From assembly GCA_005799495.1 (NCBI GenBank), contig SYGP01000046.1, positions 1 through 58,134 of the forward strand: a stretch of DNA of 58,134 nucleotides, in the 5' to 3' direction. Position 1 is the stretch's first letter; each line of letters starts with the position of its first letter. Position numbers and translations under genes: made by a program. Source of the DNA: Planctomycetia bacterium (GTDB lineage Bacteria; Planctomycetota; Phycisphaerae; Phycisphaerales; SM1A02). Positions 34,957 through 41,676 of the stretch are shown here, in pieces. The notes under the pieces were generated by a model. It worked only from the letters and a program-made list of their open reading frames with translations. It had not been told where the DNA came from and made no database searches.

Positions 34957-35970
34957 TCAGGCGGGCACCCGCGCGTCCGCGGGCAGCGTCTCGAGTGCGT
35001 TCGAGATGATCGAATCTGGGTGAATGCCCTCGGCCTCCCCCTCGAAGTTGATCAGCACACGGTGCCGCAGCGCGGGCAGCGCGCACTTGCGGATGTCATC
35101 GGTCGTGACCTGCGCGCGGCCGCCAAGGAGTGCGATGACCTTCGCGCCCAACACCAAAGTCTGCGCGGCACGCGGACTCGCGCCGAAGCGCAGGTACTTG
35201 TTGGTCATCGGCGTGGCAAACGGTCCCTGCGGATGGGTCGCCAACACGAGCCGCACCGCATAGTCCTGCACATGCGGGGCGATCATCACATGTCGCACGA
35301 GTTTCTGGTGGGACAGGATCGACTTCGCATCCAGAACCCGCTCGATCGTCGCACCTTCGCCCGCCGTGGTGCGGTTGAGAATCTCCCCGAGTTCCTCGCG
35401 AGAGCTGTAACCCACCTCCAACTTGAAGAAGAATCGGTCGAGCTGCGCCTCGGGAAGTGGATAGGTTCCTTCCTGCTCAATGGGGTTCTGCGTCGCCATC
35501 ACCAGGAACGGCTTGTCGAGGACGTGTGTCACGCCACCGACCGTCACGCTTCGCTCCTGCATCGCCTCGAGCAGCGACGACTGTGTCTTCGGTGTTGCAC
35601 GATTGATTTCGTCCGCCAAGAGGATCTGCGTGAACACAGGCCCCTTTCGGAACTGGAAGTCGCGGCCGCCGTCGCGCTCCACGACGATCGTCGTGCCCGT
35701 GACATCGGCGGGCATCAGGTCGGGCGTGAACTGGATGCGGCTGAAGTCCAACGACAGCGCTTGCGAAAGTGAACGCACCAAGAGCGTCTTGCCAAGCCCA
35801 GGAACGCCTTCCAGCAGGGCATGCCCGTTGGCGAAGAGCGCAATCAACACGCCATCCACCACCGCGTGGTGACCGACGACGGCCTTTTGAACCTCACGCC
35901 GAACGCGCTGGAAATCCTGTTGAAAGCGCGCCGCGTGCTGTTCGACCGCCGCTTGATGCTGTTCGCTCAT
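34957..35970 (-). CDS. MoxR family AAA+ ATPase
   Basis: 337 aa from ATG 35970 (MSEQHQAAVEQ). An upstream ATG at 35979 overlaps the predicted TACGAT -10 element, so the shorter start is preferred. AAA+ motifs: Walker A GVPGLGKT (about 55-62), Walker B ILLADEIN (116-123), 'TQNPIEQEGTYPLPEAQLDR' with sensor 1 and arginine finger, and 'LRFGASPRAAQTL' as sensor 2. MoxR ATPases act as chaperones maturing metalloproteins or envelope complexes, usually with DUF58 and von Willebrand A proteins; those partners are not next door. A GC stem spans the stop codon and a T-rich run follows at 34933-34925, a weak terminator candidate. Confidence 0.92.
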   Translation of the reverse strand: MSEQHQAAVEQHAARFQQDFQRVRREVQKAVVGHHAVVDGVLIALFANGHALLEGVPGLGKTLLVRSLSQALSLDFSRIQFTPDLMPADVTGTTIVVERDGGRDFQFRKGPVFTQILLADEINRATPKTQSSLLEAMQERSVTVGGVTHVLDKPFLVMATQNPIEQEGTYPLPEAQLDRFFFKLEVGYSSREELGEILNRTTAGEGATIERVLDAKSILSHQKLVRHVMIAPHVQDYAVRLVLATHPQGPFATPMTNKYLRFGASPRAAQTLVLGAKVIALLGGRAQVTTDDIRKCALPALRHRVLINFEGEAEGIHPDSIISNALETLPADARVPA

Positions 35971-35977
35971 GCGGTGC

Positions 35978-35983
35978 ATCGTA
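35978..35983 (-). promoter_or_regulatory. -10 element (TACGAT) 7 nt before the MoxR start
   Basis: On the minus strand TACGAT, 7 nt, ATG at 35970, with no Shine-Dalgarno. It helps choose between two nearby ATGs. Confidence 0.55.
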
Positions 35984-36059
35984 AACCCAATTCATCGACG
36001 GAGAGCGCGATTCTCGCGACGCGAGCCACCGGATTGACCGTCGCGCCGCCAGTCGTTAC

Positions 36060-36195
36060 CGTCCTCGCCGCTGCGACTGTTGTCGCAGCACGCTCCTGCT
36101 TGAAGGAATGCGGTGCAAGTCCGCAGCGATCGCGTCACCGTGAGCAGTTGGATTCACGAATCCAGCCGCAAGTCGGGTCGATCAAGCAGGTGCGT
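36060..36195 (+). ncRNA. Cobalamin (B12) riboswitch
   Basis: The conserved core reads GGAA (36105-36108), then a hairpin TGCGG/CCGCA (36109-36113 with 36121-36125) presenting the loop TGCAAGT, that is the GGTGxAAxTCC signature; then GCGATCGCGTCACCGTGA (36126-36143), matching the B12-box GCxGxCCCGCxACTGTxA with a few changes; a side hairpin GGATT/AATCC (36150-36163); and AAGTC (36170-36174). CCTGCTT (36095-36101) pairs perfectly with AAGCAGG (36184-36190), closing the core. A hairpin further 3' could be the expression platform. It lies directly upstream of a secreted PEP-CTERM-like protein gene on the same strand. Outer boundaries are approximate. Confidence 0.85.
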
Positions 36196-36212
36196 GGTCA
36201 TGCCCGTCCCTT

Positions 36213-36235
36213 GGATCCTGCGCTGAACAGGGTCC
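36213..36235 (+). promoter_or_regulatory. Stem-loop after the cobalamin riboswitch (possible expression platform)
   Basis: GGATCCTG (36213-36220) pairs with CAGGGTCC (36228-36235, one G-T pair) around a 7-nt loop, ending 24 nt before the ATG. It could be alternative pairing or kissing-loop partner controlling ribosome access to the AAAGAAAG region at 36242-36249. No T tract, so translational control is more likely than termination. Confidence 0.5.
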
Positions 36236-36259
36236 GCATGCAAAGAAAGATCCGTTTTC

Positions 36260-36811
36260 ATGCTGTCCATTTCACTTCGCCGTGGCGCTCGTTCGCCTGC
36301 GCTGTCCATCGCATTCGCCGCACTCGCTTCACTCCCCGCTTCGGCGGGCGTTGTATCGACAATCGAAGTCGGTGCTGGAGCCCGTCAGTCCACCGTCCAG
36401 ATCGATCAGGACGATGGCGACTCGTATCTCTTCCTTGTGCGGTTCGGGTCGGACTCCTTCACCAGTTGGGACGCGCTGCTCACGATCGATGCCGAACTCG
36501 ATTCATTTGCGCTCGAGTATCAGACCTACTCATTCGGCGTCTTTCTCACGGGCATCACCATTGACGGGGACCGTGACTTCGGCACGGGCGACCTGTGGCC
36601 CATCCCCAACTACTGGCAGTTCTGGATCGACAACGGCTCCGAGTGGGAGGCGTCGATGGTTGGCGCACAGGCGCGCGTGCTTGCATCTGGTGACGCGGAT
36701 GCATGGGTGTTCGGTTCAAACGCGCCGCCGCAGCCGATCCCCGCGCCCGCCGCGGGCATCGGCGCACTTCTCATGATGGGTGTCTCGCGACGCCGCAGGT
36801 GCGTGGGCTGA
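36260..36811 (+). CDS. Secreted PEP-CTERM-like protein under B12 riboswitch control, function unknown
   Basis: 183 aa. Signal peptide about 1-30 (MLSISLRRGARSPALSIAF then LASLPASAG). The mature domain (about 31-155) is acidic and aromatic: 'SYLFLVRFGSDSFTSWDALL', 'SFALEYQTYSFGVFLTGI', 'NYWQFWIDNGSEWEASM'. C-terminus 'PIPAPAAGIGALLMMG' followed by SRRRR is a PEP-CTERM-like tripartite tail (motif, hydrophobic helix, basic end) for exosortase sorting. I do not recognise the domain; the WDALL and Tyr/Trp pattern is loosely like the transcobalamin-type DUF4430 ligand domain. The riboswitch suggests corrinoid binding or uptake at the cell surface. Ends 10 bp from the convergent clpP gene. Confidence 0.75.
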   Translation: MLSISLRRGARSPALSIAFAALASLPASAGVVSTIEVGAGARQSTVQIDQDDGDSYLFLVRFGSDSFTSWDALLTIDAELDSFALEYQTYSFGVFLTGITIDGDRDFGTGDLWPIPNYWQFWIDNGSEWEASMVGAQARVLASGDADAWVFGSNAPPQPIPAPAAGIGALLMMGVSRRRRCVG

Positions 36812-36821
36812 CGAACTCGCG

Positions 36822-37421
36822 TCAGCCCTTGACCTGCAACTTGTCGAGCACGCTGTCGACGAGTCCGTACTCGAGCATCTCAGGGGCACTCAGCCACTTG
36901 TTTCGCTCGCAGTCATCGGCGATGCGTTCCTTGGTCTGCCCAGTCTGCGATGCATAGATGCGATAGATCTGCTCGCGCAGGCGGAGGATGTGCCGTGCCT
37001 CGATCTCGAGATCGGTTGCCTGTCCCTCAAGAACGCCGCCGAGCAGTGGTTGATGCATCAGGTTTTCCGCGTTGGGCAGCGCAAAGCGCCGACCCTTGGT
37101 GCCGCAGCATGCGATCACACTTCCCATGCTTGCGGCCTGGCCGACGATGTAGGTCGCCACGGGGCAGGGCACAAACCGCATCGTGTCCACGATGCCGAGA
37201 CCCGCGGTCACACTGCCGCCGGGGCTGTTCACATACAGCGAGATCTCCGCCTTGGGGTTGTCGTTGGCAAGGAACAGCAACTGCGCGACGATGAGGTTCG
37301 CCATGGCATCGCTCACTTGTCCGCCGACGAACACGATGCGGTCGTTCAAGAGGCGGGAATAGATGTCGTATGCGCGCTCGCCGCGACCGGTCTTTTCAAT
37401 GACGATGGGAATGATGCTCAT
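36822..37421 (-). CDS. clpP: ATP-dependent Clp protease proteolytic subunit (third in the array)
   Basis: 199 aa from ATG 37421. ClpP fold with intact catalytic triad: Ser98 in GQAASMG, His123 in LMHQP, Asp170 preceding [19 protein letters not shown]. The substrate-groove motif NSPGGS is canonical (residues 65-70). Forms tetradecameric chambers fed by ClpX/ClpA-type unfoldases, none of which is encoded nearby. The start overlaps the end of the preceding clpP by 4 nt (ATGA), so the two are translationally coupled and may co-assemble. Convergent with the B12-controlled gene. Confidence 0.95.
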
Positions 37422-38056
37422 GTTTCGGTCCTTGGTGTGGGGGAAGTCGGGAGGCTGTCGATGATGCGGTCGACCAGTCCGTAGGCGAGCATCTCGCTCG
37501 CATCGAGCCAAAGGTCGCGGTCGCAGTCTCGTGCGATCTGTTCGACGCTCTTTCCGGTCGCCGCTGAATACAGACGATTGCACTGCTCCTCGAGGCGCAG
37601 CATGCGGCGCGCCTCAATCTCGAGGTCGGTCGCTTGACCCTCGATCGCTCCGTGGTAGCGCCCTTGATGCATCAGGTTCCACCCGTGCGGAAGTGCGAAG
37701 CGTTGACCCTTGCTGCCGCAGCACGCGATCACGCTCATCATGCTCGGCGCAGAGCCGACGATGTAGGTCGCCACGGGGCACCCCACCGCTTGCATGGTGT
37801 CGATGATCGCAAGCCCGTCGCTCACGCTGCCGCCCTGCCCATTGATGTACATATGGATCGGGGCACCCGGGCGGTCGTTCGCCAAGAACAGCAGCTGCGC
37901 GACGATCGCGTTGGCCATGTCCTGCTCGACCTCGCCGGAGCACAAAACCACGCGGTCCACCAACAGGCGTGACACGATGTCCAGTTCACGCTCCACCCGA
38001 CCTGCGCCATGCAGGACATAAGGGACCAGAAGCGGATCGTCTTCCATCAACAGCAT
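37418..38056 (-). CDS. clpP: ATP-dependent Clp protease proteolytic subunit paralog (second in the array)
   Basis: 212 aa from ATG 38056 ([17 protein letters not shown]). Catalytic residues present: Ser105 in GSAPSMM, His130 in LMHQG, Asp177 before [19 protein letters not shown]. The canonical NSPGGS groove motif is changed to NGQGGS, and the oxyanion-strand is GSAPSMMSV, so substrate binding or activation may differ from the downstream copy. It has about 45% identity by eye to the downstream copy over the core. 25 nt separate it from the upstream copy. Confidence 0.93.
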
Positions 38057-38081
38057 GGCGTCACTCCGTTGGCGCGCGCGT

Positions 38082-38759
38082 TCACTTCTTCGCGGTCTTG
38101 TCCGGGAACGACGCGACTTCGTCGACCAATCCGTACGACTTCGCCTCTTGCGCGTCGAAGTACTTGTCGCGTTCGCCGTCCTTCGCCACTTGCTCCACGG
38201 GCTGCTTGCAGTGGCGCGCGATGATCTCATTCAGCAGACGCTTCGCCTTGATGATCTGGTCCGCCTGAATCTGGATGTCGGTGGTCTGCCCGGTGACGCC
38301 GCCGTACGGCTGATGAATCATCACCTTGGCGTGCGGCAGGATCGTGCGCTTGCCCGCATGCCCCGCGCACAACAACACGGCACCGCCCGAGTACGCGCGC
38401 CCGATGCAAGTCGTCGCCACTTCGCTGCTGATGAACTGCATCGTGTCGTAGATGGCGAGCGTGTCATCCACCGCGCCACCCGGACTGTTGATGTAGAAGT
38501 TGATGTCCTGTCCTCGCTTCTGGTTCTCGAGATACAGCATCTGCATCATCACGCGCGCAGCGGACGCGTGATTGATCTCGCCGACGAGGAACACGACGCG
38601 GTTCTCCAGCAGCAGTTCGTCGATCGTCATCTCGCGCGTTCGCTGGTAGTTCGTGGCGATGCGAGGCATCGGTGGAACGCCTGCGGCAGCGAGATGGGCG
38701 TGGCTTGCGGGAAGTTCGCCGAGCGCGCCAAGACCGTACGGATCGGAGGTGATCTGCAT
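38082..38759 (-). CDS. clpP: ATP-dependent Clp protease proteolytic subunit paralog (first in the array)
   Basis: 225 aa from ATG 38759. A 40-residue N-terminal extension (rich in Pro/Ala, ending MPRIATNYQRTREMTID) precedes the ClpP core; this may include a processed propeptide. Triad: Ser114 in GRAYSGGAV, His139 in MIHQP, Asp184 before GERDKYFDAQEAKSYGLVDEV. The groove motif is NSPGGA. It is more diverged from the other two than they are from each other. TATCCT lies 10 nt before the ATG, and the divergent holA-like start is 45 bp away. Confidence 0.93.
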   Translation of the reverse strand: MQITSDPYGLGALGELPASHAHLAAAGVPPMPRIATNYQRTREMTIDELLLENRVVFLVGEINHASAARVMMQMLYLENQKRGQDINFYINSPGGAVDDTLAIYDTMQFISSEVATTCIGRAYSGGAVLLCAGHAGKRTILPHAKVMIHQPYGGVTGQTTDIQIQADQIIKAKRLLNEIIARHCKQPVEQVAKDGERDKYFDAQEAKSYGLVDEVASFPDKTAKK

Positions 38760-38790
38760 AAGGGGCGCAAGGATAGGGCAATTGCGCGGG

Positions 38791-38796
38791 TACGCT
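38791..38796 (+). promoter_or_regulatory. -10 element (TACGCT) 8 nt before the polymerase III delta start
   Basis: TACGCT, 8 nt including CGGGGGCG, ATG at 38805. The GGGG could also serve as a short Shine-Dalgarno. Confidence 0.4.
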
Positions 38797-38804
38797 CGGG
38801 GGCG

Positions 38805-39806
38805 ATGGCGCTGCGCGGCCCCGATGCATCCCACCGAATCGTCGTGCTGCACGGCAAGGACTCATTCCTGCGTGTGGAGTGGTCTCAGCGTTTGCGCACG
38901 GCGCTCGAGCGGGCTCACGGGAGGGTCGAAGAGTTTCAGTTCGACGGCACAACGACGCCACTGGCCGCCGTGCTGGACGAACTTCGCTCCTACGGACTGA
39001 TGGCGACCCACAAGCTGGTGATTGTCGACAACGCCGATGCCTTCTTCGCAGCCGAGGAAAGGCGCCGCGCGATGGAGCGATATGCGGCGGATCCGATGCG
39101 CGAGGCGACCCTGTTGCTCCGCGCCCATGCCTGGCGCCCCGGAAACTTCGACAAGTTGGTGGGGCAGGTCGGGCTCGTGCTGAAGTGCGAACCCCCTGGC
39201 GATGCCGATGCCATTCGGTGGTGCATGGGTCGCAGTCCGAAGCAGCATGGCATGCAGATTGACAGTGACGGCGCCGAGTTATTGGTCGAGCGGGTCGGTA
39301 GCGATCTGGCGCGCCTCGACTCGGAACTTGGAAAGCTGGCAGTTGCCGCTCTGGCGGCGAAGTCGGACACCGTAGGGCGTCCGCTTGTGAAAGAAATGGT
39401 TGGCGCAAGCCGCGAAGAGCAGGCATGGGAGGTGCAGGGGGCGCTGCTCGGCGGCGATCTCGGCGCCGTGTCGCAGAAAGTGTGCGATCTGATTCGTGTT
39501 TCGAAGGCACCGGAGGTCATGCTGTCGTGGGCCGTCATTGATCTTGTCCGCAAGGTGCACGCGGGTGCCGTGCTGGCTGCCGATGGGCATGCGGATGGGC
39601 AGATTGCGCGGGAAATCAAGCTCTGGGGAGAATCGACTGCCCCCGTGCTGCGTGCCGCACGGCGCCTCGGGGTGGTGCGTTCGGCTGCGCTGCTGCACGA
39701 GGCAATCCGGGCGGACTGGACGATGAAGTCGGGCGGGGCCCCTGATCCCGAGCGAGCTCTTCTTGGCATCTGTGCTCTGGTGGCAACCGAGTTTCGGGCG
39801 CCTTGA
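38805..39806 (+). CDS. holA: DNA polymerase III subunit delta
   Basis: 333 aa from ATG 38805; the longer open frame upstream overlaps clpP and is not coding. HolA-type clamp-loader subunit that opens the beta sliding clamp. The N-terminal part has 'RIVVLHGKDSFLRVEWSQRL' (the family's GxDxFL), 'YGLMATHKLVIVDNADAFFA' and 'LLLRAHAWRPGNFDKLVG'; the middle has 'DGAELLVERVGSDLARLDSE' and 'LGKLA', the conserved LD-x-E-x-x-KL helix; the C-terminal helices complete a normal length. Delta lacks Walker motifs by design. Divergent from the clpP array. Confidence 0.9.
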   Translation: MALRGPDASHRIVVLHGKDSFLRVEWSQRLRTALERAHGRVEEFQFDGTTTPLAAVLDELRSYGLMATHKLVIVDNADAFFAAEERRRAMERYAADPMREATLLLRAHAWRPGNFDKLVGQVGLVLKCEPPGDADAIRWCMGRSPKQHGMQIDSDGAELLVERVGSDLARLDSELGKLAVAALAAKSDTVGRPLVKEMVGASREEQAWEVQGALLGGDLGAVSQKVCDLIRVSKAPEVMLSWAVIDLVRKVHAGAVLAADGHADGQIAREIKLWGESTAPVLRAARRLGVVRSAALLHEAIRADWTMKSGGAPDPERALLGICALVATEFRAP

Positions 39807-40146: not shown

Positions 40147-41676
40147 ATGACTCTTACCAAGTTTGTTGGAATCCTCGCCTCGGGTCTCGCCTTCACCGGC
40201 GCAGCCTCGGCGCAGGGCACTGACGCGCTGAGCGAAATCGCTCAGCTCAAGGCTGAGGTCGCTCAGCTCAAGGCACAGAACGGCGACAAGTGGCTCACCG
40301 AAGAGCGCGCCGCCGAAATCAAGTCACTCGTGAAGGATGTCCTCGCGGACTCCGAGACCCGCAGCAGCCTCCAGGGCACGGGCGCAACGGCTGGCTACAA
40401 CAACGGGTTCTTCATCAGCAGCGCCGATGGCAACTACAAGTTGAACGTCAGCGTGCTCGCGCAGGCCCGCTTCACATGGAATTATCAGCAGGGCAAGAAC
40501 ATCGGAACGGTGCCAGCGGGCTCCGTCACCGGTGCGGCAACTGCCTCTGGCACTGGCGACGGAGTGTCGACTTGGGCGTTCGAGAACCGCCGGACATCCT
40601 TCGGCTTCTCGGGCAATGTGGTTGACCCAAGCTTCACCTACGCGGTGCGGTTGGCTTACAACAGCGCAATCGATCCTTACACCCCGACGGCTGACGCCAT
40701 GGTTCTCCAGGAAGCCTGGATCAACAAGGACCTCGGCAACGGCGTCGGTTTGAAGATCGGTCAGTTCAAGTCGCCCTTCATGGCGGAATCGCTGCGCGCC
40801 GATGGTGCACAGCTCACCTCCGAGCGCTCCGTGGTTGATTACTACTTCTCGGGTGGCTTCACTCAGGGCATCATGCTCAGCTACTCGCAGGACATGTTCC
40901 GTGCAATGGGCAGCTACAACAACGGCCCCCGCGCACAGAACGGAAACTGGGCGACTGGATCGAACAACAGCATCTCGCTGTCTGGGCGCTTTGAGTACAA
41001 GGTCATGGGCAGCTGGTCTCAGTTCGACACCGAGTCGTCGTCCAAGAGCGATGAATCGGGTCTGGTGGTCGGCGCCGCGATCCAGTACTACAACAACCGT
41101 GGAGGTTCTGCGGGTACTGCCAGCGGCGGATACCTGCCAGTCGTGAGCTCGCCGATTTACGGTGGATCAGTGTTTACCGGTGCTGGTGTCATTGATGTGA
41201 TCTCGACTGGTGCAATCAACTGGACGGCTGATGCTTCGTTCAAGTCTGGTGGAATGTCAGCCAACGTAGCTTTCGTTGGCGCAAACTACGGGACGGCCAA
41301 TAACGCTGCCGGCGGCTCCGCGTTTGCCGCACCTGTCACGAACGAAAGTTCGTACGGCATGGTCGTGCAGGGCGGCTATCGGTTCACCGATAGCTTGGAA
41401 GCCTTCGGTCGCTGGGAGTGGTACAACGTTGCTGGTGGGGCCAACAATGTTGGCAGCCTGACTGGCGGCGATGCGATTGATGTCAACAACATCATCACCG
41501 TCGGCGTGAATGTGTATGCGGGAAGCAACATCAAGTGGTCGACTCAGTACGGCATCTCGCTGTCCGATGTCGGCAACCAGTTGGTGAATCTCAATGGCGC
41601 TGGCTATCAGGCCGATGCCAACACTCAGTCTGCGAACCAGATGAACATCATCACCCAGCTCCAGATCATGTTCTGA
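40147..41676 (+). CDS. Phosphate-selective porin O/P-type outer-membrane porin
   Basis: 509 aa. Signal peptide MTLTKFVGILASGLAFTGAA then SAQ. An N-terminal helical coiled-coil (about 25-75: 'EIAQLKAEVAQLKAQNGDKW') is followed by the stalk motif 'LTEERAAEIKSLVKDVLADS', then a beta-barrel of alternating aromatic strands ('LNVSVLAQARFTWNYQQG', 'FAVRLAYNSAIDPYTP'-like, 'LKIGQFKSPFMAESL') ending in 'LQIMF', a terminal Phe typical of outer-membrane proteins. The coiled-coil suggests anchoring to peptidoglycan or other envelope layers. High ribosome-site quality and an elaborate promoter imply high expression. Followed by a strong terminator. Confidence 0.88.
   Translation: MTLTKFVGILASGLAFTGAASAQGTDALSEIAQLKAEVAQLKAQNGDKWLTEERAAEIKSLVKDVLADSETRSSLQGTGATAGYNNGFFISSADGNYKLNVSVLAQARFTWNYQQGKNIGTVPAGSVTGAATASGTGDGVSTWAFENRRTSFGFSGNVVDPSFTYAVRLAYNSAIDPYTPTADAMVLQEAWINKDLGNGVGLKIGQFKSPFMAESLRADGAQLTSERSVVDYYFSGGFTQGIMLSYSQDMFRAMGSYNNGPRAQNGNWATGSNNSISLSGRFEYKVMGSWSQFDTESSSKSDESGLVVGAAIQYYNNRGGSAGTASGGYLPVVSSPIYGGSVFTGAGVIDVISTGAINWTADASFKSGGMSANVAFVGANYGTANNAAGGSAFAAPVTNESSYGMVVQGGYRFTDSLEAFGRWEWYNVAGGANNVGSLTGGDAIDVNNIITVGVNVYAGSNIKWSTQYGISLSDVGNQLVNLNGAGYQADANTQSANQMNIITQLQIMF

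Follow-up and report, generated by a model that had tools for sequence, protein, structure and literature searches.

A cobalamin riboswitch linked to the gene of a putatively surface-anchored planctomycete protein with a predicted transcobalamin beta-domain fold

What a cobalamin riboswitch might control when the only gene behind it encodes a small, apparently exported protein of no evident family is the question raised by a locus of a Planctomycetia bacterium (assembly GCA_005799495.1, contig SYGP01000046.1), analyzed here in a window of 58,134 nucleotides, the whole stretch of DNA under study, from a genome of 2.36 Mb in 50 contigs. A preliminary description had read the riboswitch from leader motifs and had suggested a new corrinoid-binding domain displayed at the surface. 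The gene (Table 1) is flanked by genes for a MoxR-type AAA ATPase (34957-35979, minus strand) and a ClpP protein (36822-37583, minus strand), and it has no close neighbor on its own strand, in keeping with the earlier statement that it is the one gene this riboswitch can control. No btuB or other transport gene was seen beside it. Elsewhere in the window, three ClpP genes, each with a PF00574 match (Pfam), lie in a row at 36822-38852 (minus strand), and a protein resembling phosphate-selective porin O/P (E 7.4e-8) is encoded at 40147-41676 (plus strand).

Table 1. Coordinates of the riboswitch, gene and protein features of the window, and of the second riboswitch unit of the source genome
Feature	Position	Strand	Basis
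AdoCbl-class cobalamin riboswitch and 3' P13-type hairpin region	36078..36243	+	RF01482, 48.4 bits, E 5.7e-8
Closing helix, 5' strand CCTGCTT	36095..36101	+	
Hairpin-presented core GGTGCAAGTCC	36112..36122	+	
B12-box-like GCGATCGCGTCACCGTGA	36126..36143	+	Little or no variation in most columns across 20 leaders
Closing helix, 3' strand AAGCAGG	36184..36190	+	
Hairpin GGATCCTG-CGCTGAA-CAGGGTCC, probable expression-platform hairpin (role inferred)	36213..36235	+	Predicted fold
Gene for exported 183-aa transcobalamin-beta-like protein	36260..36811	+	ORF; 23 full-length matches in 61 genomes (source genome included)
Signal peptide (residues 1-29)	36260..36346	+	Read from sequence; low-confidence N-terminus in model
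Transcobalamin-beta-like domain (about residues 37-155)	36368..36724	+	AlphaFold2 model, Foldseek, VIA-align Z 11.4-13.4
PEP-CTERM-like tail (Pro-rich motif, hydrophobic stretch, Arg cluster)	36728..36808	+	Sequence
Second cobalamin riboswitch, followed by VPG and pseudopilin-like gene	G000:C34:24924-25124; L191:3150-5044	minus (G000 coordinates)	RF00174; arrangement recurs in relatives

Scanned with Rfam at gathering thresholds, the whole window yields no match. In a permissive scan of positions 35960-36400, the RF01482 match covers model positions 1-149 of 149 and falls 1.6 bits below the gathering cut-off of 50 bits, the second-best match to this model in the whole source genome scoring 19.9 bits. 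The preliminary description had proposed RF00174 as the model to run, and a covariance match is indeed present, but at 24.8 bits it remains below the cut-off of 31.5; RF00174 alone would have left the riboswitch call ambiguous. The motifs that had been picked out earlier, GGTGCAAGTCC, GCGATCGCGTCACCGTGA, CCTGCTT and AAGCAGG, are all in place (Table 1), and the first two occur only once each on this strand of the window. A covariance model that we built from orthologous leaders, designated R1, scores 104.3 bits at 36086-36196, the window leader being among its training rows, and the predicted fold of the 175-nt leader is more stable than those of its dinucleotide-shuffled versions (z -3.09; 1 of 200 as good).

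Support for the structure comes from an alignment of 20 orthologous leaders, from the source genome and its relatives, out of the 23 available; G013, with a shortened aptamer, and G028 and G044, with a different, longer form, were left out. Compensatory changes, on both sides and in at least one sequence, were found in 15 of the 24 consensus pairs. The closing helix shows them at 7 of 8 pairs across the 20 sequences, and the core hairpin GGTGCAAGTCC, paired in all 20, at 3 of 5. Of all cells, 92.7% are paired; with shuffled partners the figure is 73.9%, and after sliding the 3' partners by one to three columns it is 26-44%. For the covariation score the observed value is 0.511, whereas shuffles give 0.164 and the slid versions stay at or below 0.092. 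None of 500 shuffles equals the observed value in either measure. Shuffling does not remove the relatedness of the sequences, and the structure was derived from the same 20-leader alignment; the gap is still wide. The riboswitch RNA is thus a real, conserved structure, its identification settled by covariation over 20 leaders, with controls, and by the R1 model. That the leader might be decayed or orphaned, with the gene under some other control, could be argued from the RF01482 score just below threshold and from the shortened aptamer of relative G013, but this is hardly tenable in view of the strong covariation, the core conserved over the 20 leaders and a riboswitch at each of the 45 testable loci described below.

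A hairpin similar to that at 36213-36235 is also present in the consensus of 10 same-genus leaders, and in the window it ends 24 bases 5' of the start codon. Neither a terminator-like site nor a sigma-70-like promoter was found near the leader, and no consistent kissing-loop complementarity could be made out by eye. Since no terminator-like site lies 3' of the aptamer and the hairpin stands 24 bases before the start codon, we infer that control at translation is the likelier mode. Binding of AdoCbl by the leader, and repression through it, are inferred from the riboswitch class, without binding data, and the direction of regulation is inferred likewise: when AdoCbl is plentiful the leader RNA would bind it and turn expression off, probably at translation, and when B12 is scarce the 183-aa protein would be produced and exported, with its PEP-CTERM-like tail keeping it at the cell surface.

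Gene and riboswitch occur together across genomes. Searches with the protein in 61 genomes (60 relatives and the source genome) returned matches in 26, of which 23 are full-length and three cover only the C-terminal part (that of G003 lying at a contig edge). Directly upstream of 22 of the 23 full-length homologues there is an Rfam cobalamin riboswitch match (E <=1), most of these being below gathering scores, as in G020 (21.3 bits), G034 (30.0), G033 (30.1) and G007 (30.4); no RF01482 match above the cut-off was obtained in any of 39 genomes. The remaining homologue, in G013, is preceded by a shortened aptamer that R1 recovers in L138, whose contig equals that of G013 in length (51.3 bits), and a riboswitch consequently stands directly upstream of all 23 full-length homologues of the relatives set (22 by Rfam, 1 by R1). 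At L138:4903-4988 itself, the aptamer is shortened and the gene kept, through either a deletion or an assembly error. Seven genomes of the same genus lack a protein match (G001, G002, G006, G010, G012, G015 and G017), and each has a single RF00174 match, which in 7 of 7 cases precedes another gene; incompleteness of these seven assemblies is not excluded.

The same association holds in a second collection, made up of 47 loci of homologues. R1 matches upstream of the gene in 43 of them, at E 6.2e-14 or better (30 not on contigs used for training, 13 on contigs equal to training contigs in length), and RF00174 matches of 47 and 103 bits were obtained for L153 and L155. With L146 and L154 excluded because they start inside the gene, a riboswitch lies upstream at 45 of 45 testable loci (43 by R1, two by RF00174); 14 of the 45 contigs are also among the 23 of the relatives set, and the 45 include a few loci that are nearly identical. 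A search of the phylum, scoring up to 11 candidates per genome, gave matches in at least 13 of 294 genomes, the source genome included. Ten additional loci match the domain, one of them (L095) from the same family, and 8 of the ten have a riboswitch. RF00174 matches of 70-113 bits are found at seven. For L095, RF01482 matches weakly (30.1 bits, E 0.09) but R1 clearly (57.7 bits, E 8.2e-17). At L103 nothing beyond a marginal, correctly placed R1 match was obtained (13.5 bits, E 0.035), and L104 has no riboswitch match with either Rfam or R1. Homologues that never co-occur with cobalamin riboswitches, which by the preliminary description would have refuted its reading, are thus not what these counts (23/23, 45/45 and 8/10) reveal. 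One relative has two cobalamin riboswitches about 2 kb apart (G026:C2:19844-22280).

The N-terminus of the protein reads as a Sec signal peptide and its tail, which ends PIPAPAAGIGALLMMGVSRRRRCVG, as a PEP-CTERM-like motif, both assignments being made from the sequence alone. PEP-CTERM models match some of the 23 homologues (6 with Pfam, 4 with NCBIfam TIGR02595), several more distant homologues carry a literal PEP motif, and neither the Pfam nor the NCBIfam models match the window protein itself. Exosortase (PF09721) was detected in 21 of the 21 genomes searched, at E 4.3e-47 in the source genome. Anchoring of the window protein at the surface is an inference.

Between these two ends, residues 30-156 contain 20 D/E against 4 R/K, together with 6 W, 4 Y and 9 F, and so fit the acidic, Trp/Tyr-rich domain that had been described. 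Pfam has no family for the protein. An AlphaFold2 model computed from 45 aligned sequences (alignment A3) has a mean pLDDT of 80.7, with ten-residue blocks over residues 31-160 at 82-98. The best 15 rows of a VIA-align comparison are all intrinsic factor, haptocorrin, transcobalamin or the DUF4430 structure 3u7z, with rmsd of 1.9-2.4 over 96-107 residues. Intrinsic factor reaches Z 13.4, haptocorrin 13.2, bovine transcobalamin 12.7 and 3u7z 11.4; the next row below this group is ubiquitin-like, with Z 6.6. In Foldseek the best 19 rows are again these four proteins, at probability 1.00 and with E ranging from 1.9e-4 to 3.6e-3 (8 chains at E <=0.001), and the 20th is unrelated (E 0.049). The protein, as a predicted model, has the fold of the transcobalamin beta domain, and the link is strong in fold and weak in sequence. 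Searches of PDB sequences with profiles A1 and A5, and with a planctomycete DUF4430 profile, found no transcobalamin.

The likeness to the beta domain of the animal carriers, in predicted fold over 100-107 residues with Z up to 13.4 and rmsd of about 2, is accompanied by marked differences: the window protein is bacterial, has a PEP-CTERM-like tail, shares only 12-18% identity with its structural matches and, at 183 aa with a single predicted domain, lacks a transcobalamin-type alpha domain. The comparison with transcobalamin and DUF4430 that had been advised at the outset thus led to the beta-domain fold, and by the same token the domain cannot be called new in its fold, which is already known; the novelty lies in how far the family has diverged, in its anchoring and in the genes that accompany it. 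Five aromatic residues (Y118, W119, W122, W129 and W149) vary little or not at all in alignments A1 and A3, and in the wider alignment A5 only W119, W129 and W149 stay at 90% or above.

We consider it likely that the gene serves B12 acquisition, encoding a riboswitch-repressed surface B12 trap with a transcobalamin-beta fold, corrinoid binding being inferred in the absence of binding data. The single domain would most likely bind corrinoids outside the cell. The isolated beta domain of human transcobalamin has been crystallized with cyanocobalamin (PMC5599065), so that no second domain is needed for a protein of this fold to hold the vitamin. The surface display of a corrinoid-binding domain that had been suggested earlier is supported by linkage and fold, the corrinoid function itself still being inferred. 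The protein might instead be a B12-regulated surface component that binds no corrinoid, acting as a structural or protein-protein adaptor for VPG (a neighbor in related loci, see below) or for an uptake complex, its fold resembling that of ubiquitin-like proteins. Many ubiquitin-like domains follow below the transcobalamin group at VIA Z 5-6.6, and BtuL and, unlike BtuK1, BtuK2, proteins of Bacteroides B12 operons, do not bind B12 (PMC12751083). We nevertheless hold an adaptor to be unlikely, given Z of at least 11.4 for the transcobalamin/DUF4430 group against 6.6 for ubiquitin-like domains, and given the aromatic residues, W119, W129 and W149 being conserved throughout and Y118 and W122 in the closer homologues.

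Relation to DUF4430 was examined further by sequence. The Pfam model (PF14478, cut-off 23.8 bits) matches neither the window protein nor 22 aligned homologues, and no DUF4430 match above the Pfam cut-off exists in the source genome or in 27 genomes searched. Profile-profile comparison of A5 (38 homologues) with 11 planctomycete DUF4430 domains gave a collinear match of 92 columns (score 24.8, probability 21%), the best of 300 column shuffles of A5 reaching 20.0 over 13 columns. Reversing the template gave 10.7, and none of seven slices taken from an unrelated profile exceeded 9.9; A3, which is narrower, scored only 19.5, about the level of the best A5 shuffle. The two families accordingly share a predicted fold (Z 11.4) and a collinear profile match above shuffles, and differ in that the Pfam model misses the window protein and in their control. 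DUF4430 occurs above the Pfam cut-off in 13 of 246 genomes of the phylum, and of the 16 loci scanned for riboswitches (20 were returned, the rest being neighbors at the same places) only one has a cobalamin riboswitch, on which gathering, permissive and R1 searches agree. DUF4430 proteins had been listed beforehand among B12-riboswitch targets; in this phylum that is rare. Because 15 of 16 DUF4430 loci have no riboswitch match, B12 control is not implied by the fold alone. At L170:1914-2050 (minus strand), a cobalamin riboswitch (56.6 bits; R1 23.1 bits) lies upstream of a DUF4430 match below the Pfam cut-off.

A survey of B12 requirement covered 20 of the 23 gene-carrying genomes, the source genome included. 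The corrin-ring gene CbiC was detected in none of the 20 and in 7 of 14 control genomes, and a single marker gene is no proof that B12 synthesis is absent. B12-binding enzyme domains are present in 20 of 20 genomes, each of which has such a domain in an open frame of 1,180-1,333 residues, inferred to be methionine synthase MetH, whose expected size this is. FecCD permeases, a family that also includes siderophore permeases, were found in 19 of 20 genomes; to the only one of the source genome, BtuC and FhuB models match alike, all below their cut-offs. A TonB-dependent receptor was found in 8 of 20 genomes, among them the source genome (L192), and none was detected in the other 12, so that any argument from a missing receptor covers 12 relatives and not the source genome. 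The only receptor match of the source genome (L192:786-8215, minus strand) is followed by a DUF4142 gene and by a gene for a 912-aa lactonase/YncE-like propeller protein, with no cobalamin riboswitch match (Rfam) at the locus; to us, receptor and propeller faintly recall a BtuB-BtuG arrangement.

These data bear on the ligand. The protein could capture cobalt, another metal or a siderophore-like compound, with B12 merely signaling the need: 3u7z was deposited as a putative metal-binding protein, the DUF4430 genes of the phylum are mostly not under B12 riboswitches, and B12 riboswitches precede some cobalt/nickel transporter operons (PMC2667541). With CbiC in none of the 20 gene-carrying genomes, however, free cobalt should not help to make a corrin ring, and the remaining top structural matches are cobalamin carriers, which leaves a different ligand improbable in our view. 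For a corrinoid trap, the bound corrinoid would feed an uptake route ending at a FecCD/BtuC-type transporter, a hand-over that is inferred.

At E <=1, RF00174 has two matches in the source genome, that of the window and a stronger one of 65.3 bits elsewhere (Table 1), which precedes the gene of a secreted protein with a dockerin-like tail, here termed VPG after its YVPG motif, and a pseudopilin-like gene. The latter name rests on an FTLVE N-terminus and on similarity to VPG neighbors elsewhere, the source-genome protein having no Pfam or NCBIfam match; pseudopilin-like neighbors in L155 and L107 do match a prepilin N-methylation motif. Among the best 30 RF00174 places (L059-L088), 28 precede VPG and two precede window-gene homologues. 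A pseudopilin-like sequence is present in 27 of these best 30, including L070, which has a window-gene homologue, and at the remaining three the sequence stops shortly after VPG or the window-gene homologue. In three distant loci (L097, L098 and L155), a window-gene homologue, VPG and a pseudopilin-like gene are found behind one riboswitch. Within the sequence examined, no VPG was found beside the homologue in L101, L103, L104 or L107; in L103 and L107 a pseudopilin-like gene is near the window-gene homologue. Because the three genes stand together behind one riboswitch elsewhere, we infer an ancestral operon, which would have been split in this family, each half keeping a switch.

VPG has no family match beyond its dockerin part (8 of 10) and a weak match to a LIC_13355 lipoprotein (4 of 4, best 4.3e-4), and in PDB searches its best matches cover only the dockerin/EF-hand part (best 60 of 205 in one search). 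A structure predicted for VPG from a single sequence was uninformative (mean pLDDT 38.6). The window gene, VPG and the pseudopilin-like protein, all under cobalamin riboswitches, may conceivably be components of a so far undescribed system of B12 acquisition in planctomycetes, in which, without a TonB-dependent receptor, B12 would be captured outside the cell and cross the outer membrane by a non-BtuB route; this wider proposal is tentative, and we regard it as doubtful.

Separate studies on BtuH and on BtuG have reportedly been published, and Mucisphaera calidilacus, mentioned below, is a planctomycete. In Bacteroides, B12 is captured at the surface by the riboswitch-controlled, B12-repressed lipoproteins BtuG, BtuH, BtuJ and BtuK, as stated in three reports (PMC10404256, PMC12751083, PMC13398666). 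The last of these describes the BtuJ/DUF4465 fold as an augmented beta-jellyroll and reports that DUF4465 proteins, including one of M. calidilacus, were taken to binding tests and that binding is common in DUF4465 (PMC13398666). By analogy the window protein, an apparently exported protein under a B12 riboswitch whose capture function is inferred, would work like these Bacteroides proteins, which differ in being lipoproteins whose genes accompany btuB and other genes of transport. By family model it is not one of them: DUF4465 is not among the Pfam families of the window protein or of the 23 homologues. BtuH and BtuJ are also absent from the VIA list, which does not exclude a relation.

The nearest named family is SCO2322 (NCBIfam NF040672), which matches weakly and locally in 36 of 45 homologues (window residues 118-156, best E 1.1e-4) and in 18 of the 23 of an overlapping set; the window protein matches no other NCBIfam model and reaches only 12.8 bits against a cut-off of 85. 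The name SCO2322 appears in no paper among the matches listed, and no paper describing the protein family or the gene set was among the matches listed for openly licensed PMC articles, judged by title and the start of the abstract.

The published surface B12-capture proteins that we found come mainly from gut Bacteroides, together with their relatives in DUF4465. To these, the locus adds a planctomycete lineage, represented mostly by metagenome assemblies, with a different capture domain, inferred as such, whose predicted fold is that of animal intrinsic factor and transcobalamin, and it suggests what proteins missed by every family model might do. The riboswitch-linked genes are short, expressible targets, and they raise testable questions on where the B12 carriers of animals came from and on how B12 is imported in bacteria without a detectable TonB-dependent receptor.
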